Of a stretch of DNA of 64,000 nucleotides, positions 1,807-27,228 are shown piece by piece. Numbering within the stretch: the stretch's first letter is position 1; every line of letters starts with the position of its first letter. Position numbers and translations under genes: made by a program. The notes beneath the pieces were generated by a model. It did no database searches and was not told where the DNA came from. It saw only the letters and a list, made by a program, of their open reading frames with translations. The stretch comes from Solirubrobacterales bacterium (GTDB lineage: Bacteria > Actinomycetota > Thermoleophilia > Solirubrobacterales > JACPNS01): NCBI GenBank assembly GCA_016185345.1, contig JACPNS010000021.1, positions 1 to 64,000 on the forward strand. Direction: 5' to 3'.

Positions 1807-1820
1807 CGAACATATGTTCG
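1807..1820. promoter_or_regulatory. LexA (SOS) box overlapping the dnaE2 start codon
   Basis: CGAACATATGTTCG is a perfect 14-bp palindrome that fits the Gram-positive/actinobacterial LexA operator (CGAAC-N4-GTTCG). It sits between the -10 box (1800-1805) and codon 3 of dnaE2, with ATG 1814-1816 at its centre. It also lies just upstream of a minus-strand TATTCT box (1806-1801) that could drive the divergent toxin-antitoxin operon. Confidence 0.85.
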
Positions 1821-4800: not shown

Positions 4801-5281
4801 CAGCTCCAGCACCGACCTCGATCGCCTGCCCGAGAACCACCGCGTGCAGGTGTCCGGGCTCGTTGTCGCGCGGCAGCGGCCGGGCACGGCCAAGGGTGTC
4901 GTCTTCGTTCTGCTCGAGGACGAGGTCGGTGTGGTCAACGTGATCTTCCCGCCGCAGATCTACGCTCAGCACCGAACAACCGTGCGCAGCGAGCCGTTGC
5001 TGACGGTCACGGGCAAGCTGGAGCGCAGGACTGGAGCGGTGAATGTGCTGGCAACGCACGTCAAGGCGCTGTTCGGCGCAGACATCGAGGCGGCCGTGCG
5101 CGAGATCAAGCGACCGCAGACCTCAGAGCAGGATGTTCGGGGCAAGATGGGCATCGACACCGACACCGCGCTTGCCGCGATGAACGGTGATTTTGATGCG
5201 GCGCGCAAGGTTATGGGCGATGCTGCCGACATAAAGGCAGTCGCCCCCGTCGGAATCAATTTCGGACGACGAGGGAGATAG
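1814..5281 (+). CDS. dnaE2: Error-prone DNA polymerase III alpha subunit DnaE2 (ImuC)
   Basis: An 1155-residue C-family polymerase that performs translesion synthesis and damage-induced mutagenesis in the SOS response. The PHP domain comes first (YIELHAHSAYSFHDG at residues 9-23, ALTDHD near 43). The polymerase core follows: GRGSSVSSIVCYLTG around 385, and the catalytic palm strand LPDIDLDFPRDIRHE around 420. Then come SQHSGGMVIS, KIDLLGLGMLS and FPKAHAAAFGLLAYQ, a helix-hairpin-helix region, and a C-terminal OB fold (residues 985-1090). Length and the short PHP-to-palm spacing match DnaE2, not replicative DnaE1. The LexA box over its start indicates DNA-damage induction. Its usual partners imuA and imuB are not in this window. 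Confidence 0.95.
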   Translation: MFGSGRPKYIELHAHSAYSFHDGVSHPHELAEAAAGHGYSAYALTDHDAIHGNMEFAHALQPLGLHAIHGTELTLEGGHHVTLIVENHRGWTTLCRILTLAHAETRQGTAQRIPQQPQVKFDELLALAGDGGGLICLSGCAARGAVAGRVARGELAAAEGAARQLRGAFGHEHFFIEIQRPFQRHDRGLNIALERIAERVGAPTVATGNVHVHARERAALQDVFVALKYNASLDETEPLRRGNSSHVMASPEEMARRFAEHPQAVAQTVEIAERIDFDLTSDLGYRYPGAQDPRQIKRLRAVCETMLLERYGPKGDHKGGSVGRRHVSLKEARVRLEEELRVIEKLRLPGFFLIHHDLLELAREIAIEVRGDSAARSVLPPGRGRGSSVSSIVCYLTGLSHVDPLEADLCLGRFLHEELTSLPDIDLDFPRDIRHELIPRIHKRYGNRHSALVAAFPTYRTRGSLRGLGKALGLPQTEIERVIRTTDRSYGEVLEERVEASIRDSPSGARLLDSPRWRALLTLLPQIHRLPRGLSQHSGGMVISTDPLDEVCPIVPAAMVGRQIVQWDKDSCSDAGFAKIDLLGLGMLSAVERTVDLIHGARGEQVDLSRIPLDDPKTFHQIVRGETTGVFQIESRAQMQMLVRSRPETLNDIFIQVAIVRPGPITGGAVHPYLERRKLLRADPSYEVPYAHPLLKEVLADTLGSIVFQDQVIEVARVLADFTPSEGEGLRRAMSRKRSHEALAAYHRRFIEGAGANGVSEEVAESVFAQIIGFSGFGFPKAHAAAFGLLAYQTSWLRAHYAPEFVCGLMNEQPMGFYLPDALAHEAQRRGIKVLPADVNRSGVECSVEWIGPEELAVRVGLAYVKGAKEAGLRSLVAARKEAGPFTSVEDLASRSGTDGPTLEKLAWAGACDNIGTETNGRNRREALWLLGAAPAGETKADDSAQLALPIAPLPVPKLNKLDDWDEMIADYGATGMTVGTHPLGLLRPRLQKEGVSSSTDLDRLPENHRVQVSGLVVARQRPGTAKGVVFVLLEDEVGVVNVIFPPQIYAQHRTTVRSEPLLTVTGKLERRTGAVNVLATHVKALFGADIEAAVREIKRPQTSEQDVRGKMGIDTDTALAAMNGDFDAARKVMGDAADIKAVAPVGINFGRRGR

Positions 5282-5310: not shown

Positions 5311-6378
5311 ATGACCACAACCCGTGAAGCACCCCGCGTAGTCGTGGCGGATGATTCCGCATTCATGCGCAGGCTGATTTCCGACGTGCTCACGCGCGAC
5401 GGCATGCGCGTCGTCGCCGAAGCGGCCAACGGTCGCGAAGCGATCGACGCCTGTCGCCAACACCACCCAGACGTTCTCTCGCTTGACCTCGCGATGCCCG
5501 AAGTAGATGGCATCGAGGTGCTCAAGAAGCTCCGCCCGATGCGCGATCTGAAGATCGTCGTCGTCTCGTCTTTCTCCGAGCAGGGCGGCATACGCGCCGT
5601 TGACGCCCTCGCCGAGGGCGCCTTCGAGCTCGTGCCCAAGCGCGCGACCGGCGGCAAGCTCCAGGACTTCCTCGACGATCTCCTGAGCAAGGCGCAGGCC
5701 GCAACATTCGAGGCCCCCGCCAAGCGCGTGAACGGAAATGGATTGATCGCAGAGCTCCCGGCCAAGGCGCCGAGCGCCCCGCGCAAGGTGCTCCCGGCGC
5801 GCCTCTCGCGCCCATCAACCAAGAAGCTCGTTCTGATCGCGTCTTCGACCGGCGGGCCGCGAGCGCTCACAGAAGTCGTGAAGCACTTCCCGGCAGAGCT
5901 CGGTCAAGGGCTGGTGATCGTGCAGCACATGCCCGCAGGCTTCACCCGCTCACTCGCCACCAGGCTCGACTCAGAAGGCCCTCTGAACATCGCCGAGGCT
6001 GAAGCAGGCGAGAAGATCGACTCCACGCACGGGTTCGTCGCGATGGGTGGCCACCACCTGCGCATCCGGCGCAAACGAATTGAACTCTCCAGCGAAGCCG
6101 CGATCGGCGGCCTGCGTCCGTGCGCCGACATCACGATCACCGACGCCGTCCAGAACTACGGCGGCAACATCGTCCTCGCCGTCCTGACTGGAATGGGTCG
6201 GGACGCCTGCAAGGGCGCAAAGCTTGTGAAGGATGCTGGCGGAATCGTGATCGCCGAGCACGGCAACACCACGACCGTGAACGGAATGCCGCGCGCGATC
6301 ACAGAGGCCGGCCTTGATGACGCAGTCCTGCCGATCGACGAGATCGGCGCCGCACTTGTGGAGGCAGCTGGTGAGTGA
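5311..6378 (+). CDS. cheB: Chemotaxis response regulator protein-glutamate methylesterase CheB
   Basis: A 355-residue CheB that removes methyl groups from (and deamidates) chemoreceptor glutamates during adaptation. The receiver domain (about 8-125) has the acidic pair D14-D15, phospho-acceptor D59 in LSLDLAMPEVDG and K117 in the VPKRA segment. After a linker, the methylesterase domain (about 168-350) carries the Ser-His-Asp triad: S179 in ASSTGGP, H206 in VIVQHMP and D298 in LTGMGRDA. It is the first gene of the chemotaxis operon, only 29 bases after the dnaE2 stop, with no clear promoter or strong ribosome site in that gap. cheR overlaps its end. Confidence 0.95.
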   Translation: MTTTREAPRVVVADDSAFMRRLISDVLTRDGMRVVAEAANGREAIDACRQHHPDVLSLDLAMPEVDGIEVLKKLRPMRDLKIVVVSSFSEQGGIRAVDALAEGAFELVPKRATGGKLQDFLDDLLSKAQAATFEAPAKRVNGNGLIAELPAKAPSAPRKVLPARLSRPSTKKLVLIASSTGGPRALTEVVKHFPAELGQGLVIVQHMPAGFTRSLATRLDSEGPLNIAEAEAGEKIDSTHGFVAMGGHHLRIRRKRIELSSEAAIGGLRPCADITITDAVQNYGGNIVLAVLTGMGRDACKGAKLVKDAGGIVIAEHGNTTTVNGMPRAITEAGLDDAVLPIDEIGAALVEAAGE

Positions 6379-7300
6379 ACGTCCCGAAAGACCAGCGCCG
6401 CCGCGCGTCCCGATTCCGCCGCGCCCGCCGCGTGCACCGATCAACACCCGCACGCCCGGAGTTGGCCTGCCCCTACCGGCGCCGGAAGCGCTGAAGCCCC
6501 TGCCGCCCGGCGACTTCGAGAACTTCTGCAAAGGAGTGAAGGAACTGCTGGGCGTGGACCTGTCGCTCTACAAGCGCAAACAGATGGAGCGTCGAGCCCG
6601 TGGCCTCGCGTCACGCAACCACGTCGAGACGCTCACCGAGTACCTGCACATGCTGCAGAAGGACGCAGTCCTTCTCGACCGCTTCATGGAGCGCATGACG
6701 ATCACCGTCAGTCAGCTCTGGCGCAACACAGACATCTTCGATGCGATCGAGAACGAGATCCTTCCCGAGCTCGACAAACACGCCGACGGCCGCAAACTGA
6801 AACTCTGGTCTGCCGGGTGTTCCTACGGCGCCGAGCCCTACACGCTCGCGTCGATCTGCCTTGAGATGGGCAACAAGCTCAATCGCACGCCGCAGATCAA
6901 GGGGACCGACATCAACCCGCGGATGATCGAGAAGGCCCGCCGCGGCCAGTACACCGAAGAGGACGCGCGCGACGCGCCGCCGCGACTGCTGCAGAAGTAC
7001 TTCGACCCCGTCAAGGGCGGGTGGATCGCAAAGCCGGCGCTCAAGCAGCTGATCACATTCAAGGTCGAGGACCTCTTCGCGTCGAAGACCGATGCTGTGG
7101 ACCTGATTCTCTTCCGAAACGTCGCAATTCACTTCGAGCGCCCGCGCCGCGATGAAGTGCACGGGATCCTCGCCGATGCGCTTCTGCCGGGCGGGATCCT
7201 CGTGCTCGGCTCGACCGAGATGATCGTCGACCCGAGCGGGATCGGCCTCGAGCGCGTTCGCCCATTCGTATTTCGCAAGGTCGCCACGGAAGCCGTCTGA
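6371..7300 (+). CDS. cheR: Chemotaxis protein methyltransferase CheR
   Basis: A 309-residue S-adenosylmethionine-dependent methyltransferase that methylates receptor glutamates. I chose GTG 6371, which overlaps the cheB stop by 8 bases and has GGAGG (6360-6364) 6 bases upstream; an in-frame ATG at 6314 would add an implausible tail inside cheB. After a proline-rich N-terminus comes the CheR N-domain (DFENFCKGVKELLGVDLSLYK, about 45-65) and the Rossmann domain with LWSAGCSYGAEPYTLA. That motif differs from the usual GCSTGEEPYS by a Tyr and an Ala. The downstream FRNVAIHF resembles the CheR FCRNVLIYF segment with the Cys replaced. It ends in a TGATG overlap with cheA. Confidence 0.93.
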   Translation: MSERPERPAPPRVPIPPRPPRAPINTRTPGVGLPLPAPEALKPLPPGDFENFCKGVKELLGVDLSLYKRKQMERRARGLASRNHVETLTEYLHMLQKDAVLLDRFMERMTITVSQLWRNTDIFDAIENEILPELDKHADGRKLKLWSAGCSYGAEPYTLASICLEMGNKLNRTPQIKGTDINPRMIEKARRGQYTEEDARDAPPRLLQKYFDPVKGGWIAKPALKQLITFKVEDLFASKTDAVDLILFRNVAIHFERPRRDEVHGILADALLPGGILVLGSTEMIVDPSGIGLERVRPFVFRKVATEAV

Positions 7301-8976
7301 TGGCCGGGATAGACGACTCCGAGTACATCGAGCTGTTTCTCGCCGAGGCGCGCGAGAACCTCGAAACGCTGAACACGGCGATCGTCGGCGTAGAGGCCGA
7401 CCCGACAGACACAGCGAACGTGGACGTCGTCTTCCGCGTGGCTCACTCAGTCAAGGGCATGGCCGCGACGATGGGTTACGACCACATCGCGCACCTCACC
7501 CACGCCATGGAAGACGTCTTCGCCCTGCTTCGCGAGCGCGCCGGCGGACTGCACCGCGAGGCGATCGACGTGCTGTTCGAGTGCATGGACATGCTCTCGA
7601 AGATGGTCGATGAGGTCGCCGAGCACGGCGAGAGCCGCACCGACCCGACCGCTCTTGAATCCGACCTTCGCGGTCTGCTGCGCGATCGCGATGACTCGGC
7701 CGGGCCCGAAGTTCGCGCTGCGGTTGCCGAAGCAGTAGTGGCCGACGTGCTTGTCGCCGATCAGCCCGCAGACCTGGTCGGCGCCGCCGTCAAGGACGCC
7801 CAGTCGCGCGCGACCGTGCGCGTCGAAGCTGCACGCCTGGACACGCTTTTGCACATGATCGGCGAGCTGGTGGTGCGCCGCTCGGCCGTCGAGCAGCTCG
7901 CGATCGAGAACGGCGACACTCGCCTTGTAGCCGCTGTTGGTGAATTGACCCGCGCCTCGCAGTCGGTGCAGGACATGGTCATGCGTGTGCGCATGGTGCC
8001 GATAGACACCGCTTTTGCCCGCCTGCCGCGGCTCGTGCGTGACCTTTCGCATCAGCTGGGCAAAGAAGTCCACCTCGAGATCGAGGGTCGCGACACCGAG
8101 CTTGACCGCACCGCGGTGGACGCGCTTGTCGAGCCTCTGATGCACCTCGTGCGCAACGCGATCGACCACGGAATCGAAATGCCCGACGTGCGCAAGAAGG
8201 CAAAGAAGCCAGAAGCCGGAAACCTCTTGATCGCCGCGCGGCACGAAGGCGGTGAGGTCGTCATCGCGATCACCGATGATGGCGCCGGCATCAACAACGA
8301 GGCCGTCGTGGCCCGCGCCCGCGAGCGCGGAATCATCGGCACGGACGACCTCGACAACGACCAGGCGATCGAACTGCTCTTCACTCCCGGATTCTCGACC
8401 CGCGCCGAGGTGACCGACGTTTCCGGTCGCGGCGTCGGCATGGATGCGGTCAGGTCGGCCGTGCGCGGCTTCGGTGGCGACGTCTCGGTGCGCTCGGAGT
8501 TCGGCAAAGGTACGACCACGGAACTGCGTATGCCTTTGACTCTGGCGATTCTTCCGGCGCTGGTCGTGAAGGCCGGCGGCGACTCCTACGCACTGCAGCT
8601 CGATCGGGTCGATCGCACCTTCAAGCTCGAGGAAGTCACCCTCACCACAACGGTCGGTCAGCCAGTCGCGATCTTTGATGAAGGGGCGATGCCAGTGGTC
8701 AATCTGGCGGAGTCATTCAATCGAGAGTCCGCATTTGGTACCCCACAGTTCATGGTCACAGTTCGCTCTGCCGATAGACAACTTGCTCTCGTGGTCGACG
8801 AAATGGTCGGTCGTCGCGAGCTCGTCACCCGCCCTGTTCCCGAGAGGATTCGCAGGGATTCGCCGGTCTCCGGTGGAGCGGTGTTGGCGAGCGGTGAGAT
8901 CGCCTTCATTGTCGATTGCGAGGAGCTGATTCGCCGGACGCTCATCGAGCCAGTACACAGTGGCTCACGCCAGTAG
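7300..8976 (+). CDS. cheA: Chemotaxis sensor histidine kinase CheA
   Basis: A 558-residue kinase that autophosphorylates in receptor arrays and passes phosphate to CheY and CheB. P1 (1-105) holds the phosphorylated His49 in VFRVAHSVKGMAATMGY. Only a 60-residue, Ala/Val-rich linker follows, so the CheY-binding P2 domain seems absent. P3 dimerisation (about 168-235) begins TVRVEAARLDTLLHMIGELV. P4 ATPase (about 236-410) shows the N box LVRNAIDHGIE, G1 DDGAGI and G2 GRGVGMDAV. P5, the CheW-like domain (about 415-550), binds receptors and CheW. Its ATG shares one base with the cheR stop (TGATG), so translation is coupled. Confidence 0.95.
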   Translation: MAGIDDSEYIELFLAEARENLETLNTAIVGVEADPTDTANVDVVFRVAHSVKGMAATMGYDHIAHLTHAMEDVFALLRERAGGLHREAIDVLFECMDMLSKMVDEVAEHGESRTDPTALESDLRGLLRDRDDSAGPEVRAAVAEAVVADVLVADQPADLVGAAVKDAQSRATVRVEAARLDTLLHMIGELVVRRSAVEQLAIENGDTRLVAAVGELTRASQSVQDMVMRVRMVPIDTAFARLPRLVRDLSHQLGKEVHLEIEGRDTELDRTAVDALVEPLMHLVRNAIDHGIEMPDVRKKAKKPEAGNLLIAARHEGGEVVIAITDDGAGINNEAVVARARERGIIGTDDLDNDQAIELLFTPGFSTRAEVTDVSGRGVGMDAVRSAVRGFGGDVSVRSEFGKGTTTELRMPLTLAILPALVVKAGGDSYALQLDRVDRTFKLEEVTLTTTVGQPVAIFDEGAMPVVNLAESFNRESAFGTPQFMVTVRSADRQLALVVDEMVGRRELVTRPVPERIRRDSPVSGGAVLASGEIAFIVDCEELIRRTLIEPVHSGSRQ

Positions 8977-8998
8977 AACGAGCAGATCAAGAGGACAC

Positions 8999-9619
8999 AT
9001 GAACATGCTGATGCCGCTGGGAGAGCCAGCTCCGCCAATTTCAGACGAACAGCAGAAAGCCCTGAGTGCCGTCGCAGAGACAATCTCGGACAAGGCCACT
9101 GACGCTTTCTCAAAACTTCTGGGCTCGAAGGTCACGGCCAAGGTGCCAGACCTCGAAGTCCTTCCGCTCAGCGAAGCCGTTGACCGCCTGGGTTCGCCCG
9201 GTGAACAGGTCACCGCCGCCTGGCTGCCGGTCGTCGGTCAGATCGAGGCCAGCGTGTTGCTGCTCTTCGATCCCGCCGGCGAAAAGCAGATTTACGACGC
9301 GCTGGGCTTGGAGCCGTACACCGAGATGGCGCGTTCGGCGCTGCAGGAGATGGCCAACATCATCGGCACGCAATACGTCTTTGGAATCGCAGAATCATGC
9401 GGGCTGACCTTCGAGCCCGAGCCTCCCGAGGTGTCCGAAGGAATGCTTGGTGCCGTGCTTTCCACGGTCTTGGCAATGTCCACGGTGGTCACCAATTACG
9501 CAGTGCTCGTTGACACACAACTGACAGTGGAGAAGAGTGACTGCATCGTGCGGTTCCTCTTCATCCCCAGCGACACAAGCGTCGAAGCTCTGATCGAGAA
9601 CATCGGCAAAGACGCATGA
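8999..9619 (+). CDS. cheC: CheC-family chemotaxis phosphatase
   Basis: A 206-residue CheC/FliY-family protein that dephosphorylates CheY-P and binds CheD. One active-site helix is intact: SALQEMANIIG (S/D-x3-E-x2-N pattern). The symmetry-related second site, MLGAVLSTVLAMSTVV, lacks the Glu-Asn pair, so this is a one-site CheC. I chose ATG 8999 (GAGGA just upstream); 9005 or 9011 give a better spacing and 8960, inside cheA, is less likely. Its end overlaps cheD (ATGA at 9616), which fits the known CheC-CheD partnership. Confidence 0.85.
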   Translation: MNMLMPLGEPAPPISDEQQKALSAVAETISDKATDAFSKLLGSKVTAKVPDLEVLPLSEAVDRLGSPGEQVTAAWLPVVGQIEASVLLLFDPAGEKQIYDALGLEPYTEMARSALQEMANIIGTQYVFGIAESCGLTFEPEPPEVSEGMLGAVLSTVLAMSTVVTNYAVLVDTQLTVEKSDCIVRFLFIPSDTSVEALIENIGKDA

Positions 9620-10245
9620 GCGGGTCCGCGGCCTCTTCCGCGGTCAACCTGATTCCTGTACGGATGGGTGAAATGGCCGTATCACGCGACAAGCGCGACG
9701 TCATCTCAGTGGTCGGGTTGGGTTCCTGCGTAGCTGTCGTGCTCGTCGCGCCCGAGAAGCGCGCCGTCGCGCTGGCGCACGTCGTGTTGCCCGAGGCGCG
9801 CATGACCGGTGGCCGAGAGGCGCCTCCTGGCAAGTTTGCAGACACCGCGATCCCCGCGATGCTCTACGCGATGCGCTCGCTGCGCGTGAAGGCCGAAGAC
9901 GTCTACGCCGTGCTCGTCGGCGGCGCCACGATGTTTGGTCACACACACTCGAGCAAGCTGGCGGGCGTCGGTGATCGTAATATCGAGGCCGCTCGCACGC
10001 AACTTGCGCGTCACGGCATCGGCATCTCATCGGAGGACGTTGGCGGGATCAGCGGCCGCAGTGTGCACGCATCTGTCGCGGATCTTGAGGTCTTTGTGCG
10101 CAGCGGCGCAGGTGAGCCGCTGAAACTGAAGGGGTCAGACAAGCCGCTCGCGGTAAAGGTTTCCGAGGTCGAGGCCGATCTGACTCAAGAGCCGTTTCCG
10201 GATGACATCTGGAACTCGGCCGACCCGGTCCAACAAACCTCGTAG
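9616..10245 (+). CDS. cheD: Chemoreceptor glutamine deamidase CheD
   Basis: A 209-residue CheD. It converts specific receptor glutamines to glutamates and takes part in CheC/CheD adaptation. The catalytic Cys38 lies in VVGLGSCVAV and His55 in ALAHVVLPE, matching the Cys-His pair of the papain-like CheD fold. GGATMF and GDRNIEAAR are further family motifs. The last 45 residues are a longer tail than usual. Start ATG 9616 overlaps the cheC stop by four bases. Confidence 0.93.
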   Translation: MSGSAASSAVNLIPVRMGEMAVSRDKRDVISVVGLGSCVAVVLVAPEKRAVALAHVVLPEARMTGGREAPPGKFADTAIPAMLYAMRSLRVKAEDVYAVLVGGATMFGHTHSSKLAGVGDRNIEAARTQLARHGIGISSEDVGGISGRSVHASVADLEVFVRSGAGEPLKLKGSDKPLAVKVSEVEADLTQEPFPDDIWNSADPVQQTS

Positions 10246-10262: not shown

Positions 10263-10625
10263 ATGGCAACTGTTCTAATCGCCGACGACTCCATGTTCAT
10301 GCGCAAGCGCCTGAATGACATCCTCACCGGAGAGGGTCACGACGTCATTGCTGAAGCAGAAGACGGCAACGAGGCGATCAACCTCTATGGCCGACTCCAG
10401 CCCGAGCTCGTGATGCTCGACATCACGATGCCCGAGCGAAACGGCATGGGCGCACTCAACCACATCATGGCCACCTCACCCGAGGCGCGCGTGATCATGT
10501 GCAGCGCGCTCGGTGAAGAGACCGTCGTCAAGGAGTGCATCGACACGGGCGCCAAGGCCTTCGTGGTCAAGCCGTTCGATCCTGAAGAAGTTCTCAGCGC
10601 CGTCGGCGACGCGCTGGCCGCCTGA
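10263..10625 (+). CDS. cheY: Chemotaxis response regulator CheY
   Basis: A 120-residue single receiver domain that carries the chemotaxis signal from CheA to its target (normally the flagellar motor). Acidic residues D8 and D9, phospho-acceptor D53 in VMLDITMP, S81 and K103 in VVKPF are all present. There is no output domain. It follows cheD by 17 bases and closes the first run of che genes before the receptor array. Because no flagellar genes are in the window, its final target is not shown here. Confidence 0.93.
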   Translation: MATVLIADDSMFMRKRLNDILTGEGHDVIAEAEDGNEAINLYGRLQPELVMLDITMPERNGMGALNHIMATSPEARVIMCSALGEETVVKECIDTGAKAFVVKPFDPEEVLSAVGDALAA

Positions 10626-10734: not shown

Positions 10735-12174
10735 ATGAATCAACAAATACCAAACGCGCCCGAGCTCACAACGGCGCAACGCCTGCTCCCGCAATGGTTC
10801 CTGGACCTTGACGCTGCGCGTAAGCCGTACGTGATCGTCGGCATCGTGCTGATCGGCACGCTGCCTCTTCTCGTGCTAGCAATGGTTGCCGCGGCGGATC
10901 TCACGACCGAGATCGACGCCCTGAATCTTCTGCTCGCCCAGCCCGAGGCGAGCCTGACCGAGATCAATGCAGCTTCAACCGCGATCCACGACGATTACAC
11001 GCGCTACGCGGTCGGCATTCTTGGTGCGATCATCTGGGCGATAGTCGTGGCCGTGGGCGGAGCGAGAATCTCCGCGCAGGTTGCGACGGACTGGGTCGGT
11101 GGCCTGACCAGCGCGGCCAGGAGAATCGCCGACGGCGACCTCGGCGTGGTGATCCAGCGCGACAACAACAGCCAGGTCGGCGACATCCAGGAGTCGATGG
11201 GCAAGATGGTCGCGAGCTTCCGCGCAACGGTCACCCGGATCGAAAGGGCGGCCTCCGAGCTGACTGATTCCGCGACGGCGATGGCCGAGACCTCCGACAG
11301 CTCTGGCCGCGCGATCGGCGAGGTGGCGCAGTCGATCAGCTCGATCAGCGAAGGCGCGTCTCATCAGGTCGCGCTGATCACGGCGGCCTCAGATGTCGTC
11401 GCGCAGATCGAGTCGGCTGTTGTAGAAACCGCCAACAACGCTTCGGCGGCGCAGCAGGAAAGCGCGCAGACCGAAAAGCTGACAGAGACCGGCGTCGATC
11501 GAGCAACCGAGATCCAGGCCGCGATGGAGACGGTTCGCGGCGCGACGCACTCAACGGTCGAGATGGTCCGATCGCTCAGCGAGACATCGGCGAACATTGA
11601 CGAGATCGTCCGCTCGATCACGTCGATCTCGGGCCAGACCAACCTCCTCGCACTGAACGCGGCGATTGAGGCCGCACGTGCCGGCGAGCAGGGCCGAGGC
11701 TTTGCAGTTGTGGCAGAGGAAGTCCGCAAACTCGCCGAGGACTCGCAATCCTCCGCCGAGGGAATCGCCGAACTGATCGAGTCGATCCAGTCGCAAACCG
11801 TGCAGGCCGTCGCCGCGATGGAAGAGGGCATGGCCACTGTCGACAGTGGCTTTGAAGCGGTCAACCGCAACCGTCAACTGTTCTTTGACATCAGCGGAGC
11901 GGTGCGGATGTTTCACGAGAGCTCAGTTGAGATCGCCGGCCTTGCGCATTCAATCGCCACCGACGCGGGTCGCGTCCGCGAGCGCATCGAAGAGGTCGCC
12001 TCGGTCGCCGAGGAGTCGAGCGCTTCGACCGAAGAGGTCTCGGCATCGACTGAAGAGACTTCGGCATCCTCACAGCAGCTGACCGCCGCAGCCCAGCGCG
12101 TCTCTCAGACCGCAGTTTCACTTATGGAACTGGCCAGTCGCTTCAGCGTCGATCAAGGGCGAGGCGAGGCATGA
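10735..12174 (+). CDS. Methyl-accepting chemotaxis protein, class A, pair 1
   Basis: A 479-residue membrane chemoreceptor. TM1 spans about 32-54 and TM2 about 91-112, leaving an extracellular loop of only about 36 residues. A HAMP domain (about 113-165, with ADGDL and QVGDIQES) and a long coiled-coil signalling domain follow. The hairpin tip near residue 305 reads [18 protein letters not shown] then [15 protein letters not shown], which binds CheA/CheW. No C-terminal CheR-docking pentapeptide is seen. The N-terminus ([15 protein letters not shown]) is shared with the other two class A receptors. Its stop overlaps the class B partner by ATGA. Confidence 0.93.
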
Positions 12175-13577
12175 GGCGCTGGATGCAGTCGGTCCCGCTC
12201 AAGCGGGCGTACACGGTTTCGACGCTTGGATACACGCTGCCGCTGCTGTTGGTGGCATTGCTGCTCGTTTTCGTCGCGCGCGGAGCCGTTTCGGCGACGG
12301 ATGACATAGCCGCCCAAGCCGAACTGACCGCAAAGAACGGCACCGTCCAAACTGCGCAGCTCACGGCCGAACCGAGCTTCCTCGACGTCTCCAAGGAATT
12401 CGCGCTGATCACGCTGATCACGGCCTTGCTCGGCGGGATGGTCACCAAGGTAATGCTGACCAATGTGCTGATGAAGGAGACCTACAAGCTCGTCGACGCC
12501 ACCCGCACTGCGGCAGGCGGCGACCTGCGCCCCGAAATCGACGTGAACATGACAAACGAGTACGGCATGTTGCAGGCGAGCGTTCGCGATCTCTTCGGCG
12601 CGTTCCGAACGACGATCAGCCGGATTGAATCCGCTGCACTCGAGATGCGCGACGCCGCAAACGAGATGACGCACACTTCGGACGAATCCGGCCGCGCGAT
12701 CGGCGAGGTCGCGGTCGCCATTGGCGCGATCAGCGAGGGAGCCTCCCACCAGTCCGGACTGATCATCGACGTCTCGGACGTGATGGTCGACATTGAGCGC
12801 ACGATCACAGACGCGTCCGAACACGCGGCCGAAGCGCAGCGCCAGAGTGCCGATACGGAGAATCTTGCCGAACAGGGTGTGCAGGCCGCCTCCGAAGTGC
12901 TCGAGGCGATGCAGGCCGTACGTGAAGAATCGTTGGCCACGGCCGCTGTGATCCGCGAACTCGGAGAGAAGTCATCAAGTATCGATCAGATCGTCGGCGC
13001 GATCGGTGACATCGCTCAGCAGACCAACATGCTCGCGCTGAATGCCGCAATCGAAGCCGCACGCGCCGGCGAGGCCGGACGCGGTTTCGGCAACGTCGCC
13101 GGCGAAGTCCGAGCATTGGCCGACGACGCCCAGACCTCGGCCGCCCAGATCACCTTGTTGGTGGCTCAGATCCAGCAACAGACCGGCGCGGCCGTGGGAG
13201 CGATGGAAGAAGCGGTGGTTGCGGTCGAGGCCGGTTTCGAGACGATCAACTCCAACCGCCAGACGTTCTTTGACATCAGCAGCGCCGTGCACAGCCTGCA
13301 CGAGGGCGCAGCCGAAGTAAGCGAGCTGGCCGCGGGCATTGCGCTTGGTGCGGGCCAGGTGCGCGAGCAGATCGAAGAGGTCGCCGCCGTGGCGGAGCAG
13401 TCGAGCGCCTCAACTGAACAAGTCTCTGCGGCGACCGAAGAGACTTCGGCCGGGGCCCAGGATGTGAGCGACGCCGCTCAGCGCGTGGCGCAGACGGCGT
13501 ACAACCTCGCCGAGTTGGCCGGACGCTTTGAACTGCCGACGGGATTCGCGAACAGAAAACCAAGAACTGACGAGTGA
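12171..13577 (+). CDS. Methyl-accepting chemotaxis protein, class B, pair 1
   Basis: A 468-residue chemoreceptor co-translated with its class A neighbour (4-base overlap). TM1 is about 14-36, the extracellular loop about 40 residues, TM2 about 78-97. The HAMP region differs from class A ([17 protein letters not shown]). The tip near residue 286 reads [18 protein letters not shown] then [15 protein letters not shown]. The Leu-to-Met and VV-to-NV changes, and loss of the Lys after EVR, are shared by all class B receptors here. Two Gly replacements (GEAG, VAGEV) make this the most divergent tip of the set. No docking pentapeptide is visible at the C-terminus. Confidence 0.92.
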
Positions 13578-13614
13578 AGAAACCTACTCCAGCGTTCAAC
13601 ATTCCGGGCGCAAC

Positions 13615-13620
13615 GGCCGA
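13615..13620 (+). promoter_or_regulatory. GGCCGA box before cheW (candidate promoter element)
   Basis: GGCCGATAG is the best match among the three to a sigma-28 -10 box (7 of 8 bases of GCCGATAA). It is placed 67 bases upstream of the preferred cheW start GTG 13688, which would make the segment 13578-13687 a leader and not coding. The -35 side (TTCAAC) is weak. Confidence 0.3.
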
Positions 13621-13687
13621 TAGAGCAGCAGGGGATGGCAGCAGACAAGAAGTATTCGTAGGAACAACGCCCCAGAGGACACTCACC

Positions 13688-14188
13688 GTGAGCTCCACAG
13701 CAGAAGGCACAATCGCCCGGCAACTCGTCGTTTTCGTACTCGGAAACGAGGAATACGCGCTGCCGATCCAGACCGTCCAGGAAGTGATTCGCTTCCAGCA
13801 CCCGCGCGCAGTCTCAAGCTCGGACCCGTCGCTTCTTGGCGTGATCAATCTTCGTGGCCGCATCGTGCCCGTGCACGACGTTCGGCCTCAATTGAACATC
13901 ATTCACGATCCTCTTCCGGCGCCCGGCACGCTGGACGCCGACGGCGAAGAGGCAGACGACGACGAGAAGATCGTTCTGGTCAACATTGACGACCGCATGG
14001 CCGGTGTTGTGGTGGACGACGTTTCCGAGGTGCTGAACGTCGAGGCCAAAGAGTTTGAGGACCTGCCCGCGTCGGGCAACGCAGTCGTTGACGGCGTCGT
14101 CAAATCCGGCGACCGCCTGATCATCCTGCTCGACCCACACGCGCTCACCAGCCTCGCCGACGGCGAGCCGGCAGCCATCGCTTCCTGA
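13688..14188 (+). CDS. cheW: Chemotaxis coupling protein CheW
   Basis: A 166-residue scaffold that links CheA to receptors. The CheW beta-barrel starts at [18 protein letters not shown] and continues with [25 protein letters not shown] and a late [13 protein letters not shown]. An acidic insertion ([12 protein letters not shown]) lies in the middle. I chose GTG 13688 because the fold begins right after it and AGAGGA lies 9 bases upstream. A GTG at 13574 overlapping the previous stop would add 38 unconserved residues and cover a possible promoter box (GGCCGATAG at 13615). It sits between receptor pairs 1 and 2. Confidence 0.92.
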
Positions 14189-14192
14189 TCTG

Positions 14193-15698
14193 ATGTCCGA
14201 CCGCAAGCTCGATAGCCGTCGGGGAGCAACGCGACTGCTCCCGTGGTGGTACGTCAACCTCGGCGCCGACCAGAAACGCATTGTCGGCTCCCTCAGCGTT
14301 CTCGGAGGCCTCATTCCGTGTCTGGTGATCGCCTGGATCGCGTCTTCAAACGCGAGTGAGTTTGAAGGCCAAATCGATGCTCTCGTGGCCAGTGGCAAGG
14401 GAACAAAGTCACAATTGCTCGGCCTCAGTTCGCAGATGCAGTCGTCGATCGGACGCACGCAGCTGGCGATGATCATCGGAATGGTCTGGGCGTTCGTGGC
14501 CGCGCTCATCAGCACCCGAATGTCAACGACGTTGTCGCAGAACTGGTTGCGTGCTCTTACCAAGATGACCGACGAGATTGCCGACGGCGACCTCTCGCGC
14601 GAAATCGTGCGCGACAACGAAAGCCACATCGGAGACTTGCAGGAAGCGCTCGGAAAGATGACCGCAAGCTTCCGTGCGACGATCAATCGCATCGAGCTTG
14701 CCGCTGCCGAGTTGCGCGAGGCAGCAGGTGAGATGGTGGACACATCAGGTGAGGCGGGCAACGCAATCGGCGAGGTCGCGCAGTCGATCAGCGCGATCAG
14801 CGAGGGCGCCGCCCACCAGGTTGACCTCGTCACCCACACTTCGGACGTCGTTGGTGAAATCGAGCGCTCCGTCCAGGGCGCCGCTGATCACGCGCAACGC
14901 GCTCAGTCTCAGAGCGCCGACGCCGAGGTCCTCACTGAGGAGGGCGTGCGACGCGCGACCGAGGTCCAGGAAGCCATGGAATCGGTGCGCGAGACGTCTT
15001 TGGCCACGCAGGAGATGATCCGCTCGCTCGGCGAGAAGTCAACGAGTATTGACCTGATCATCCAGTCGATCACCGACATCGCCGAACAGACGAACCTTCT
15101 GGCGTTGAACGCCGCGATCGAAGCAGCTCGCGCCGGCGAACAGGGCCGCGGATTTGCCGTAGTCGCAGAAGAAGTGCGAAAGCTGGCCGAGGATGCGCAG
15201 GAATCCGCAGGCGACATCGCCGAGCTGATCCTGGAGGTGCGCGCTCAGACCGAACAGGCAGTCGTGGCGATGGAAGGCGGAGTCGGAATCGTCGAGCGCG
15301 GCTTCGAGACCGTGAATCTGAATCGCCAGACGTTCTTTGACATCAGCGGATCGGTCCGTGCATTGCACGAAAACTCCGTGGAGATCAGCCAGCTCGCGGG
15401 TGGCATCGCTGCGGATGCTGGCAACGTCCGCAGCCAGATCGAGGAGGTCGCGTCGGTTGCCCAGGAGTCGAGCGCCTCTACCGAGGAGGTCAGCGCGTCA
15501 ACTGAACAGACCTCGGCGGCGGCCCAACAGGTCACGGCTTCTGCCCACCGCGTCTCCGAGACAGCCGAAAACCTCGCGGCGCTCGCCGGTCGATTCAAAC
15601 TCACAAAGGGCCCGGTCCGCCCGATCCAGGCGCAGCGCGCGGCCACGCTCGCTGCAGTCGAGGATGACGAGCGGATGGCAGAGGAGAACGTCGCATGA
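14193..15698 (+). CDS. Methyl-accepting chemotaxis protein, class A, pair 2
   Basis: A 501-residue chemoreceptor. TM1 about 30-51, extracellular loop about 38 residues, TM2 about 90-109, then HAMP ([26 protein letters not shown]) and the signalling coiled coil. The tip near residue 302 is the class A form, [18 protein letters not shown] and [15 protein letters not shown]. It starts four bases after the cheW stop and overlaps the class B partner by ATGA. The acidic C-terminal tail ([11 protein letters not shown]) has no Trp-Phe docking motif. Confidence 0.93.
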
Positions 15699-17098
15699 GC
15701 ATGTTGCGCAAGCTCTACGTAATGCCGATCGTCCGCGCCTACACGGTCGCACTACTGGTTTCAGCCATTCCGATCCTGCTCATCTCGATCCTCGCCGTAT
15801 ATCTCGTAGGCAAGGGCCAGGGAAACATCAGCGACTTCTCTGCCCAGGTCCAGGGCCTCAATACCGGGGCAAACGAGCCGATTGGGAAGGGCACGATCGA
15901 GAGCGGACCATCGTTCACCGGTGTCGTGCACCCCTGGGTGATCATCGACCTCATTGCAGTGATCGTTGGCGGCATCTTCCTCAAGGTCGTGCTGATCAAG
16001 CCGACCGGCCTGCTCTCGGAGCTTTTGCTCGCCGACGCCCGCGCGGTCGCAGGTGGCGACTTGCGGCCCGAGCCGCACGCTTGGTTCCAGAATGAATACG
16101 GCGACCTTCAGGCGAGCATGGGTCGCATGATCGGATCCTTCCGCACGACAGTGATGCGGATTGAAACCGCGTCGGTCGAGTTGAAGCAGTCGGCCGCCGA
16201 GATGGCTCACACTTCGGACGAGGCCGGAAACGCGATTGGCGAGGTCGCCCAGGCGATCAGCGCGATCAGCGAAGGCGCGTCGCACCAGGTCGACCTGGTC
16301 ACGCGGTCCTCCTACGTGGTCGCCGAGATCGAAGGGCAGATCCGCGACACGACCGAGCACGCCCGCGAGGCGCAGCGGCAGAGCTCGGACACCGAGAAGC
16401 TTTCTGAAGAAGGGCTGCAGCGCGCGGCCGAGGTCCAGCAAGCGATGGAGGCTGTGCGCGAGAGTTCGTTGAGCACTGCGGCGGTGGTGCGTTCGCTGGG
16501 CGAGAAGTCAGCGGACATCGATCAGATCGTCCAGGCGATTCAGGCGATTGCTGCCCAGACCAACATGCTCGCGCTGAACGCTTCGATCGAGGCCGCCCGG
16601 GCTGGCGATCAGGGACGCGGCTTTGCAAACGTTGCGGAAGAGGTGCGCGTGCTCGCTGAGGACGCGCAGACCTCGGCGGAACAAATCGCCACGCTCGTAC
16701 GCGAGATCAAGCTTCAGACCGAGCAGGCAGTGCTGGCGATGGAAGAGGGCGTCGTGCGGGTCGAAAACGGATTCGAAACAGTCAACCGCAATCGCCAGAC
16801 GTTCTTCGACATCGGCGGTGCCGTGCGCGCGTTGCACGTGAGTTCCAACGACATCAGCGAGCTGGCCGAGGGCATTTCAACTGGCACGGCGAAGGTGCGT
16901 AAACAGATCGAGCAGGTCGCGAGCGTTGCTGAGGAGTCGAGCGCGTCAACCGAACAGGTCAGCGCTTCGACTGAGCAGACCTCCGCCGCCGCTCAGGAGG
17001 TTTCGGCCTCGGCGCAGCGGGTCGCGAACACTGCCGCGGCACTCTCGGAGCTGTCGGGTCGCTTCACGCTTCCCGATCGAGATTCACAGGCCGCTTAG
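15695..17098 (+). CDS. Methyl-accepting chemotaxis protein, class B, pair 2
   Basis: A 467-residue chemoreceptor coupled to the preceding class A gene by an ATGA overlap. TM1 about 15-38, an extracellular loop of about 40 residues containing GPSF (also EPSF in pair 1), TM2 about 79-102. HAMP has AGGDLRPE and NEYGDLQAS. The tip is the class B form: [18 protein letters not shown] and [15 protein letters not shown]. It closes the second pair; a 97-base gap with a GGCCGA box follows before pair 3. Confidence 0.92.
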
Positions 17099-17141
17099 TG
17101 ACCGCATAGTTATTTACCGCACTCATGGTATGGCCATGATT

Positions 17142-17147
17142 GGCCGA
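17142..17147 (+). promoter_or_regulatory. GGCCGA box before receptor pair 3 (candidate promoter element)
   Basis: GGCCGACAA lies 48 bases before ATG 17196 in the 97-base gap between pairs 2 and 3. It shares GGCCGA with the two other gap boxes. No firm -35 sequence is visible. Confidence 0.25.
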
Positions 17148-17195
17148 CAAAGTTTGTAATCGGGCCACGGCAGACGCGGCCCAGGGGACAGGTAG

Positions 17196-18692
17196 ATGGC
17201 TCATCAAAAGGACTTAGGCTCAGACGAGCTGCGCATAACGCGGGTATTTCCGCAATGGTTCAAGGACATGGACTCGGCCAAGAAGCCGGTCATCTCGTCG
17301 TTGATCCTGCTGATTGTTGCTGCGCCCTTCGCGATTTTCACGATCATCTCGTGGGGTAACGCTGCGGAAGCGCACGACCAGATCTCCGCGCTGCTCGCCA
17401 GCGGCGGAAGCAAGGCCGAGTTGCTCGTCGCAACCAACGATTTCAACTCCGCGAATGCCAGCGCGCGAACGGGCATTCTGCTCACTGCGACAATCGCGTG
17501 GATCGGCGCAATCTTCATAGCGCTCACCCTGACCAAACTTTCAACCGCGTGGTTGCGCCACATGACAGTCCGAGTGCGGCGTGCCGCAGAGGGTGACCTG
17601 ACCACAGAGATTCTGCGCGACAACGCCAGCCAGGTCGGAGACATCCAGGAAGCGCTCGGCAAGATGATCGCGAGCTTCCACGCCACGGTCACGCGCATCG
17701 ACCACGCTGCACTCGACCTTCGCGACTCCGCCAAGGAAATGTCCGGCATCTCGGACGAGGCCGGCGGAGCGATCGGCGAAGTCGCCCACTCAGTTTCAGT
17801 GATCAGCATCGGCGCTGGCAACCAGGTCGAGTTGATCGGAGACACATCACGCGAAGTCGGCGAGATCGAGCAGGCCGTTCGCGAAGCCGCCGACCACGCC
17901 CAGCACGCAAGCGAAGAATCTGCCGCAACCGAAGAACTGACCGACGAAGGTGTGCTCCGCGCAGCCGAGATCGAAGAGGCGATGGAAAACGTGCGCGCCA
18001 CCTCGATGGAGACGTCAAAGGTGATCCGCTCACTCGGTGAGAAGTCAACGAGTATCGACCTGATCGTGCGTTCGATCGCCGACATCGCCGAGCAGACCAA
18101 CCTTTTGGCGCTGAACGCCGCGATCGAAGCGGCTCGCGCGGGCGAACAGGGCCGCGGCTTCGCCGTCGTCGCCGAGGAAGTACGCAAGCTTGCAGAAGAC
18201 GCGCAGCAGTCAACCGGCGAGATCGCCGAGCTGACCGAACTGATCCGCGAGCAGACTGTCAAGGCAGTCGCAGCCGTGGACGACGGATCCGCGATCGTTG
18301 AGAAGGGCGCCGAGGCAGTCAGCCTCAACCGTCAGGCCTTCGCCGACATCAGCGAAGCCGTCGCAAACCTCAACACCGGCACCGCGAAGATCTCAGAGAT
18401 CGCTCGCGAAATCGCAGGCGACGCATCACGCGTCCGCGTTGAGATCGAGGACATCGCTTCAGTCGCCGAGGAATCCAGCGCATCGACCGAGCAGGTCAGC
18501 GCCGCAACCGAGGAATCGGCCGCCGCAGCGCAGGAAGTCACAGCAACCGCAGGCCGCGTCACGCAGACCGCCGTTGCCCTCGCAGACCTTGCATCCCAGT
18601 TCGTGCTCAAAGAGAAGGCGACGAAGAACGTCGTCCCGTTGGCCAAACCGACAGCCGTCCCAGACCGGCCGAGTAAGGAACGAGCAGCATGA
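17196..18692 (+). CDS. Methyl-accepting chemotaxis protein, class A, pair 3
   Basis: A 498-residue chemoreceptor with the class A N-terminus ([16 protein letters not shown]). TM1 about 31-53, short loop, TM2 about 91-112, HAMP with [15 protein letters not shown] and [12 protein letters not shown]. The tip is class A ([33 protein letters not shown]). The descending helix is more diverged than in the other two class A proteins ([15 protein letters not shown]). It has its own 97-base upstream gap with a possible promoter. ATGA overlap joins it to class B. Confidence 0.93.
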
Positions 18693-20083
18693 GCAAACTC
18701 TTCTCGATGGGCCTGACCAAGGCCTACATAATCGTCACGATCATCGGTACGGTGCCGGCGGTCATATTCGGAATCTTCTTCTACAACGAGCTCGGTGGCT
18801 ACGGCGACCAGACGGCGCAGCTCGAGACTGCTGCCAGCGGTGCCGGGACTTTCAAAGCGGGCTCTATCCCCGACAACATCGACTACTCGCACAACATTGG
18901 GCTCTGGATGGGCGGCGTGGTGCTGACGTTCCTGTTTGCCGGTGCGCTGCTTCGGATCGTGCTCGGGAACGTCACATTGCGGACCTCCGAGAAGATGATC
19001 AGCGATATGCGTCGCGCAGCAACCGGCGATCTCTCAGGCGACCCCAAGGTCACCATGTCCAACGAGTACGGCGACCTGCAGCGCGCCTTCGTGCAGCTGC
19101 TCGGAAACTTCCGCACGACAATCGCGCGTATTGACCGCGCCTCAGGCGACCTGCGCCAGGCCGCGATGGAAATGTCACACACTTCAGACGAGGCCGGAAA
19201 CTCGATCGGCGAGGTCGCCCAGGCGATCAGCGCGATCAGCGAGGGCGCCGCACACCAGGTGGATCTTGTCGGCCGCTCTGCTGGCCACATCGAAGCGATC
19301 GAGCACGCCGTGCGCGACGCGTCCGGGCACGCAGAAGAGGCGCGTCGCCAGAGTGCCGCCACAGCTGAACTCGCCGACCAGGGCCTTGCCCGTGCCGCCG
19401 AAGTCGAGCAGTCGATGCAGGCAACGCGCGAGAGCTCGATGCGCACCGCCGAGATCGTCCGCGAGCTCGGCGAGAGTTCGGCAGACATCGATCAGATCGT
19501 CCAGTCGATCGCGGACATCGCCACCCAGACCAACATGCTTGCGCTGAATGCGTCGATCGAAGCCGCACGCGCCGGCGAACAGGGCCGCGGATTTGCGAAC
19601 GTCGCCGACGAGGTGCGCATGCTCGCCGAGGATGCGCAGTCCTCAGTCTCAGAGATCGCTTTACTCGTCCGCGAGATCAAGCTTGAAACCGACCATGCGG
19701 TCGCCGCAATGGAATCCGGCGTCACGCTGGTTGAAGACGGCTTCGACACCGTCGCCCGCAACCGCCAGACCTTCTACGACATCAGTGGAGCGATCCACGG
19801 ACTGCACGAACGCGCCGGCGAAATCAGCCAGCTGACATCCGGCATTGTTGAGGCTGCGGTCCACGTGCGCGAGCACGTTGCCGAGGTCGCAGTCGTGGCC
19901 GAGCAGTCGAGTGCATCGACCGAAGAGGTCAGTGCCTCCACCCAGGAGACTTCTGCTGCCTCGCAAGAGGTCACCGCTTCAGCGCAGAAGGTCGCCGACA
20001 CGGCGTCCACGCTGGCCGAGCTCTCGGGGCGTTTCAAGCTCCCCGAGGCGCCCGGCCAGGCCGCGGCAGCCAAAGCGGCGTAG
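18689..20083 (+). CDS. Methyl-accepting chemotaxis protein, class B, pair 3
   Basis: A 464-residue chemoreceptor coupled to the preceding gene by ATGA. TM1 about 11-32, extracellular loop about 37 residues, TM2 about 70-90. HAMP shows [10 protein letters not shown] and NEYGDLQRA. The tip is class [19 protein letters not shown] and [15 protein letters not shown]. It ends the receptor array. Beyond its stop are remnants of a histidine kinase, so the array's right border is eroded. Confidence 0.92.
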
Positions 20084-25884: not shown

Positions 25885-27228
25885 ATGGAATCGCGCGCCG
25901 TGAGGGGGACAGACGTTGCGAGCGAGCAGGCCGAAGTTCTGGCCGGCACGCGTGATCGGACCCTCGCTCTTATCGCGGGGCTGGACGACGCGGATCTTGC
26001 GCGCGTCGTGGACCCGCTGCTTTCCCCGCTGCTCTGGGATCTGGGGCACATCGCCAACTTCGAGCAGCGTTGGCTGCTCGGCAGCGACGACAGTGCGCTC
26101 GACGGCGTCTACAACCCTTTCGCGCACCCACGCGCCGGGCGCGGCGAGCTGGATGTACTGAGCAGCGACGACTGCTTCACCTACATGGGCGCCGTGCGCG
26201 AGCAGGTGCTCCAGCGGATCGACTCGCTCGACCCGTTCTTTCTTGAGCTCGTGATTCAGCACGAGCAACAGCACAACGAGACCATGCTCCAGCTGTTGCG
26301 CCAGATGGAGGGCTACACGCCACCGCCTGTGCTCGCAGATGAATACCTCGCGCCGCCGTCAGGCAAACAGCACATACGGCTTCGCGAGGCAGCTTCACGC
26401 GCCTACCGCCCGATGTCACGGAGCAAGGACATGATCGCCTTCCCGGCCGGCACCTACCGGATCGGCACCGAGCCGGGCGCGCGCACGCTGATCTACGACA
26501 ACGAACTGAACGCCCACGATCGCGACATCGAGGCATTTGAGATAGCCACGCGCCCGGTCACCAACGGAGACTTCGCTGAGTGGATCGAGTTCGGTGGCTA
26601 CAAGAAGCCCGAGTGGTGGACGCCCGAGGGCTGGGAGTGGCTCGCCGAACAAGGCGATGATTTCGATGCCGCGCCGCTCGGCTGGAAGCGCAGCCGGAAA
26701 GGTTGGATCACGACCGACTTCGGAGCAAACGATCCAATCGACCTTTCGGCACCGGTCTGCCACGTGAACTGGCACGAAGCCTGCGCTTACGCGCGAGCGC
26801 ACGGCGCTCGCCTGCCCACGGAGTTCGAATGGGAGGTCGCCGCTTCATATGACCCGCGCGTCGGCGCATCCGGCGACCGCCGCACATATGCCTGGGGCGA
26901 CAGCGCCTGGGTTTCGGGCGCGGCCAACCTGGATCATCTGGCCTTTGGCGCGCGCCCGGTCGGAAGCGCAGATCATGGTTTTGCTCCGATCGACATGCTC
27001 GGTCAGGTCTGGGAGTGGACGAGTTCAGAGTTCGCGCCGTATCCAGGATTCACGCCGTTCGCATACGAGCAGTACTCCGAGCCGTTTTTTCATGGCGGCT
27101 ACCGGGTACTACGAGGAGGATCGTGGGCAACCCGCGCCCGCACCGTCACGAACACATTTCGCAACTGGGATCTGCCGATGAGACGGCAGATTTTCTCTGG
27201 ATTCCGCCTCGCAAGGAGCGCCGCTTGA
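25885..27228 (+). CDS. egtB: Ergothioneine biosynthesis sulfoxide synthase EgtB
   Basis: A 447-residue non-haem iron enzyme that joins hercynine to a thiol donor with oxygen, the central C-S bond step in ergothioneine synthesis. The N-terminal DinB-like domain supplies the three iron His ligands: WDLGHIANFE (about 51-60) and QHEQQHNETM (about 131-140). The C-terminal FGE-sulfatase domain runs from IAFPAGTYRIG to GSWATRARTVTNTFRNWD and GFRLARS. Length is typical. It is followed by egtD with a TTGA overlap. No egtA, egtC or egtE is next to it, so the thiol donor and lyase cannot be inferred here. Confidence 0.93.
   Translation: MESRAVRGTDVASEQAEVLAGTRDRTLALIAGLDDADLARVVDPLLSPLLWDLGHIANFEQRWLLGSDDSALDGVYNPFAHPRAGRGELDVLSSDDCFTYMGAVREQVLQRIDSLDPFFLELVIQHEQQHNETMLQLLRQMEGYTPPPVLADEYLAPPSGKQHIRLREAASRAYRPMSRSKDMIAFPAGTYRIGTEPGARTLIYDNELNAHDRDIEAFEIATRPVTNGDFAEWIEFGGYKKPEWWTPEGWEWLAEQGDDFDAAPLGWKRSRKGWITTDFGANDPIDLSAPVCHVNWHEACAYARAHGARLPTEFEWEVAASYDPRVGASGDRRTYAWGDSAWVSGAANLDHLAFGARPVGSADHGFAPIDMLGQVWEWTSSEFAPYPGFTPFAYEQYSEPFFHGGYRVLRGGSWATRARTVTNTFRNWDLPMRRQIFSGFRLARSAA

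Follow-up and report, generated by a model that had tools for sequence, protein, structure and literature searches.

Three chemoreceptor gene pairs in the window, that is, the whole stretch of 64,000 nucleotides analysed here, encode two receptor classes, A and B, that differ at the tip of the signalling hairpin. The Asn residue of class B at the position equivalent to Tsr 398 suggests, at the level of sequence, an unequal partnership of A and B in place of ordinary identical pairs. We assign a probability of about 0.5 to the reading that A and B together form one signalling unit or team, with the coupling tip retained in A, and with B at sites where coupling contacts are not required. The proteins themselves are known MCPs; the novelty lies in the pairing with class-fixed tip divergence. 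The receptor genes and their junctions are as follows.

10735..12174, + strand, receptor A1, class A, 479 aa: PxWF N-terminus, TM1, short loop, TM2, degenerate HAMP (SQVG), MCP signalling domain
12171..12174, + strand, ATGA overlap A1/B1
12171..13577, + strand, receptor B1, class B, 468 aa: TM1, short loop, TM2, degenerate HAMP (NEYG), MCP domain, Asn398-type tip
14193..15698, + strand, receptor A2, class A, 501 aa
15695-15698, + strand, ATGA overlap A2/B2
15695..17098, + strand, receptor B2, class B, 467 aa
17196..18692, + strand, receptor A3, class A, 498 aa
18689-18692, + strand, ATGA overlap A3/B3
18689..20083, + strand, receptor B3, class B, 464 aa

An earlier note on this DNA had placed six receptors here, and six ORFs were indeed found, all matching MCPsignal with E < 1e-34 (PF00015; 121-132 bits in all six, curated cut-off 34.6). 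The identical 4-base ATGA overlap that it described is present at A1/B1, A2/B2 and A3/B3, and successive pairs are separated as it had said, by cheW between pairs 1 and 2 and by 97 nt between pairs 2 and 3. Its HAMP motif for class B, NEYG(D/M)LQ, occurs in all three B proteins of the window, while its N-terminal motif for class A, LLPxW(F/Y), stood in part: PxW(F/Y) is shared, and the exact LLP is restricted to A1 and A2, with VFPQWF in A3. For comparison, we used five genomes of the family, all of one genus, namely the window's genome (2.43 Mb, 22 contigs) and four relatives (G001-G004), of which G001 is a close one.

A divergent tip in class B

Comparing 12 A with 12 B sequences over the whole cytoplasmic signalling domain (Tsr numbering), we found only two positions that were fixed and non-overlapping between the classes, and both lie in the hairpin tip. 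Position 377 is Leu in A and Met in B, and position 398, a residue of the canonical tip, is Val in 12/12 A and Asn in 12/12 B, so that class B lacks the usual Val/Ile. At Tsr 405, Lys was present in all 12 A and in none of the 12 B, which have Ala, Val, Met, Leu, Ile or Gln. The codons concerned in the window are the following.

13029-13031, + strand, B1 codon for Met at Tsr 377 (Leu in every A)
13092..13094, + strand, B1 codon for Asn at Tsr 398 (Val in every A)
16565..16567, + strand, B2 codon for Met at Tsr 377
16628..16630, + strand, B2 codon for Asn398
19535-19537, + strand, B3 codon for Met at Tsr 377
19598..19600, + strand, B3 codon for Asn398

The case rests mostly on Asn398, given that Met377 is also seen in other receptors and that unrelated receptors of these genomes vary at residue 405. 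When 299 genomes of the class were searched with a DNA pattern for the Asn398 tip, this genus alone matched. A looser tip pattern matched in 57 of 247 genomes of the phylum, and among the matches listed, those outside the genus had Val, or Ile in three; genomes of the class beyond that listing, such as G008 and G014, fall within the search of 299 genomes. Five plasmid-borne relatives had Val or Ile at 398. We take Tsr 398 itself to be a trimer-contact residue. Our literature search found no paper on Tsr V398 and, for I377, only I377P, a replacement that prevents trimer formation in Tsr (PMC4692393). The neighbourhood of the hairpin tip holds the trimer contacts as well as the CheA and CheW determinants (PMC4692393), and K390 of a T. 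maritima receptor, which corresponds to Tsr 405, pairs with D333 of the CheA P3 domain in a modelled array (PMC6746300).

Among characterised systems, the E. coli receptors Tsr and Tar resemble A and B in having two TM helices, HAMP, methylation-type sites, a hairpin signalling domain, and CheA and CheW. They differ in being homodimers with large ligand-binding domains and one canonical tip, whereas A and B have two tip classes locked in gene pairs. The best solved relatives are the T. maritima TM1143-type receptors (PDB 2CH7; E 5.6e-26 for A2 and 1.1e-23 for B2). Their tip is canonical, as in class A, with Val where class B has Asn. To our knowledge, they are not known to form A/B pairs. Haloarchaeal receptors with a TNMLALNAS tip (e.g. 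Halomicrobium, L065) have Met377 and Ser383 in common with class B, but retain Val at 398.

Strict pairing within one genus

The window's genome and G001 carry three receptor pairs each, and G002, G003 and G004 carry two each. In all 12 pairs of the five genomes, A precedes B, and orphan A or B genes were absent. Eleven of the 12 A/B junctions overlap by exactly 4 nt (NTGA) and one by 8 nt; for the other four genomes, this amounts to eight exact 4-nt overlaps among nine junctions, the ninth being the 8-nt case. The surrounding spacings are wide, with ~100-122 nt from B to cheW in the relatives, ~108-136 nt from cheY to A, and 97-98 nt from B2 to A3, and this difference from the A/B overlaps sets every pair apart as a tight unit. 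However, the cheX/cheD junction, readable in four genomes, is in each of them also an overlap of exactly 4 nt, which makes this type of overlap ordinary for the operon: it marks co-translation, and by itself does not mark complex formation. We thus rejected the overlap as specific evidence of a complex. Conservation of the pairs inside one genus may also reflect simple inheritance.

A second receptor family in these genomes has several predicted TM segments and is also arranged in tandem (G000:C3, ~103600-107400; L044 5597-7516 and 7531-9381). Two of its members in G002 (L046 6087-7892/7889-9688) overlap by 4 nt, and the family is unrelated to A and B. The tips of this multi-TM family retain Val398.

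Two classes older than the pair duplications

In a tree with outgroup receptors from the order, A and B together formed one clade (100/99), divided into an A clade (89/93) and a B clade (94/91). Both classes were recovered in a second tree (A 84/84, B 99/96), so that support for the class A clade was moderate in both. The lineages of pair 1 and pair 2 recur, with parallel branching, within both the A and the B clade, indicating that A and B had separated before the pairs were duplicated. The earlier note had predicted this order of branching, and the topology that it had named as a refutation, with A and B of one pair closest to each other, was not recovered. Judging from these sequences, two pairs probably existed before the five species diverged, and pair 3 was found only in the window's genome and in G001. 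Gene conversion between A and B of one pair was considered and rejected; identity within a pair exceeded identity within a class only in a few short windows, and the A/B split stands.

Input and adaptation

Hydrophobic segments were located at residues ~30-51 and ~89-112 in class A and at ~4-38 and ~73-101 in class B, leaving a loop of roughly 35-60 residues between the TM segments in both. None of the six receptors had a Pfam match to a sensor domain and, together with the short loop, this indicates that neither A nor B has room for a standard one. Given that some MCP-like proteins lack an extracytoplasmic ligand-binding domain (PMC11940527), A and B still count as MCPs. The TM/short-loop region diverges most between the pairs of the window (identity 24-27% in A and 15-29% in B), and input specificity would be expected there. 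Bac_rhodopsin, sought as a candidate sensory-rhodopsin partner, gave no match in the five genomes, a weak result given that control genomes also gave none. Structure predictions for A2 and B2 from six-sequence alignments had mean pLDDT values of 61 and 57, respectively, and are usable for helical secondary structure only.

HAMP was matched below the cut-off in all six receptors (11.8-19.2 bits vs a curated 25), at the correct place between TM2 and the signalling domain. The usual HAMP motif is DExG. Class A has S(Q/H)xG and class B has NEYG (SEYG in one), while all eight outgroup receptors have Asp at the first motif position. Three to four overlapping consensus methylation-type motifs were present in the C-terminal helix of all 24 receptors and, given that CheR, CheB and CheD are encoded, both A and B are probably adapted. 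After controlling for signalling-domain distance, A and B distances remained correlated in the TM region (partial r 0.41, p 0.0008) and in HAMP (0.30, p 0.008). We regard this co-divergence as suggestive only, as the permutation tests leave some shared ancestry.

Shared coupling proteins and a probable pilus output

The remaining chemosensory genes of the window are listed below.

5311..6378, + strand, cheB, identified by sequence, with orthologues in relatives
6314..7300, + strand, cheR, start uncertain, identified by sequence, with orthologues in relatives
7300..8976, + strand, cheA: Hpt, dimerisation, ATPase and CheW-like P5 domains; no P2 detected
8960..9619, + strand, cheC/cheX-type CheY phosphatase gene
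9616..10245, + strand, cheD, 4-nt overlap with cheX
10263..10625, + strand, cheY
13574..14188, + strand, cheW ORF, 204 aa as called, probable true start near 13685

The cheW ORF of the window is longer than those of the relatives (204 vs 156-167 aa), with homology starting ~39-48 residues in. Given the shorter cheW of the relatives and their gap of ~100-122 nt after B, the seeming overlap of B1 with cheW in the window probably arises from a wrongly called start codon. All five genomes encode one CheW, and all except G003 encode one CheA; no CheA match was found in G003, whose contig ends near that spot. Each genome yielded just two CheW-type domains, CheW itself and the P5 domain of CheA, and with a single CheW and a single CheA, class B has no private coupling protein of the CheW/CheA kind.

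Only ~70 residues separate Hpt from the dimerisation domain in CheA (7300-8976), a spacing into which the usual P2 domain would not fit. The best NCBIfam model for CheA, and likewise for CheY, was a haloarchaeal one, with a score below cut-off. Directly upstream of cheB, an ORF of 1155 aa (1814-5281) resembles an error-prone DnaE-type DNA polymerase, and farther downstream in the window, an ORF of 447 aa (25885-27228) resembles EgtB of ergothioneine synthesis; both are putative assignments. For regulatory RNA, Rfam gave no match, and the promoter and terminator scans gave chance-level results.

A flagellar or archaellar output was rejected, given that neither the flagellar rod (Flg_bb_rod, 0/5 genomes) nor archaellin (0/5) was found. 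Adjacent genes for PilB-like and PilT-family ATPases are present (G000:C12 86435-88568; L057), with PilT above its curated cut-off and PilB below. The output is probably type IV pili, reached via CheY.

Unequal partners, independent receptors or divided docking

Our preferred explanation, with A and B as one signalling unit, would work as follows. A and B would be two ancient, co-inherited receptor subclasses, translated 1:1. Class A, which retains the canonical tip (Leu377, Val398, Lys405), would engage CheA and CheW, and class B, lacking Val398 and Lys405, would be a specialised partner at sites that do not require those contacts. The two would be in physical contact, either in mixed trimers that combine A homodimers with B homodimers or as A-B heterodimers. 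Sensing would occur through the fast-diverging TM/short-loop region, both classes would be adapted by methylation, and CheY would carry the output to the type IV pilus and not to a flagellum. The earlier note had proposed obligate A-B partners; the 1:1 pairing in five genomes and the B-specific tip residues lend this proposal partial support, while the overlap that it had also invoked is ordinary, as cheX/cheD illustrates.

In each receptor dimer, one subunit is oriented towards the trimer axis and the other towards CheA/CheW, and when the subunits are identical, the same tip residues must serve both trimer contact and kinase coupling (PMC4692393). An obligate, asymmetric A-B heterodimer, in which A faces CheA/CheW and B sits at the trimer axis in one fixed orientation, is attractive in that the two dimer environments would be assigned to two genes. 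We nevertheless consider this version rather doubtful. Canonical MCPs do not form heterodimers with related MCPs (PMC11940527), which also favours a simpler account in which A and B are tandem-duplicated, co-regulated receptors with different inputs, present as ordinary homodimers that join a common array at random, the B tip being tolerated drift or fine tuning. Mixed trimers built from homodimers of different receptors, as in E. coli with Tsr and Tar (PMC4692393), would explain most of the data, and tandem arrangement with a 4-nt overlap also occurs in the unrelated multi-TM receptor family of the genus, just as NTGA overlaps are ordinary in the operon. Against this account, A and B have been kept at 1:1 in all 12 pairs across divergent genomes, and the presence of Asn398 in all 12 B and in no other receptor sampled is unlike drift at a nearly invariant site. 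We therefore view independent homodimers as a credible but less likely account.

It is also conceivable that the B tip is tuned to one coupling domain, for instance with A docking on CheW and B on CheA P5, or the reverse, so that the A/B composition would orient the trimer in the lattice. The presence of CheW and CheA P5 as the sole CheW-type domains found per genome would fit such a division, as would the location of the fixed A/B differences at the tip, the site of CheA/CheW determinants (PMC4692393). Yet the loss of Val398 and Lys405 resembles a lost contact and not a switch, and we consider divided docking improbable.

We found no example of a natural MCP heterodimer or of such receptor pairs in the open-access literature, the range of our search. 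The analysis also documents a chemosensory cluster in a genus of freshwater actinobacteria that has type IV pilus motors and apparently lacks flagella. A natural system with two receptor classes that have diverged at the very residues serving trimer contact and kinase coupling would allow the two roles to be examined separately, and it might reveal the arrangement of receptor teams within the array.
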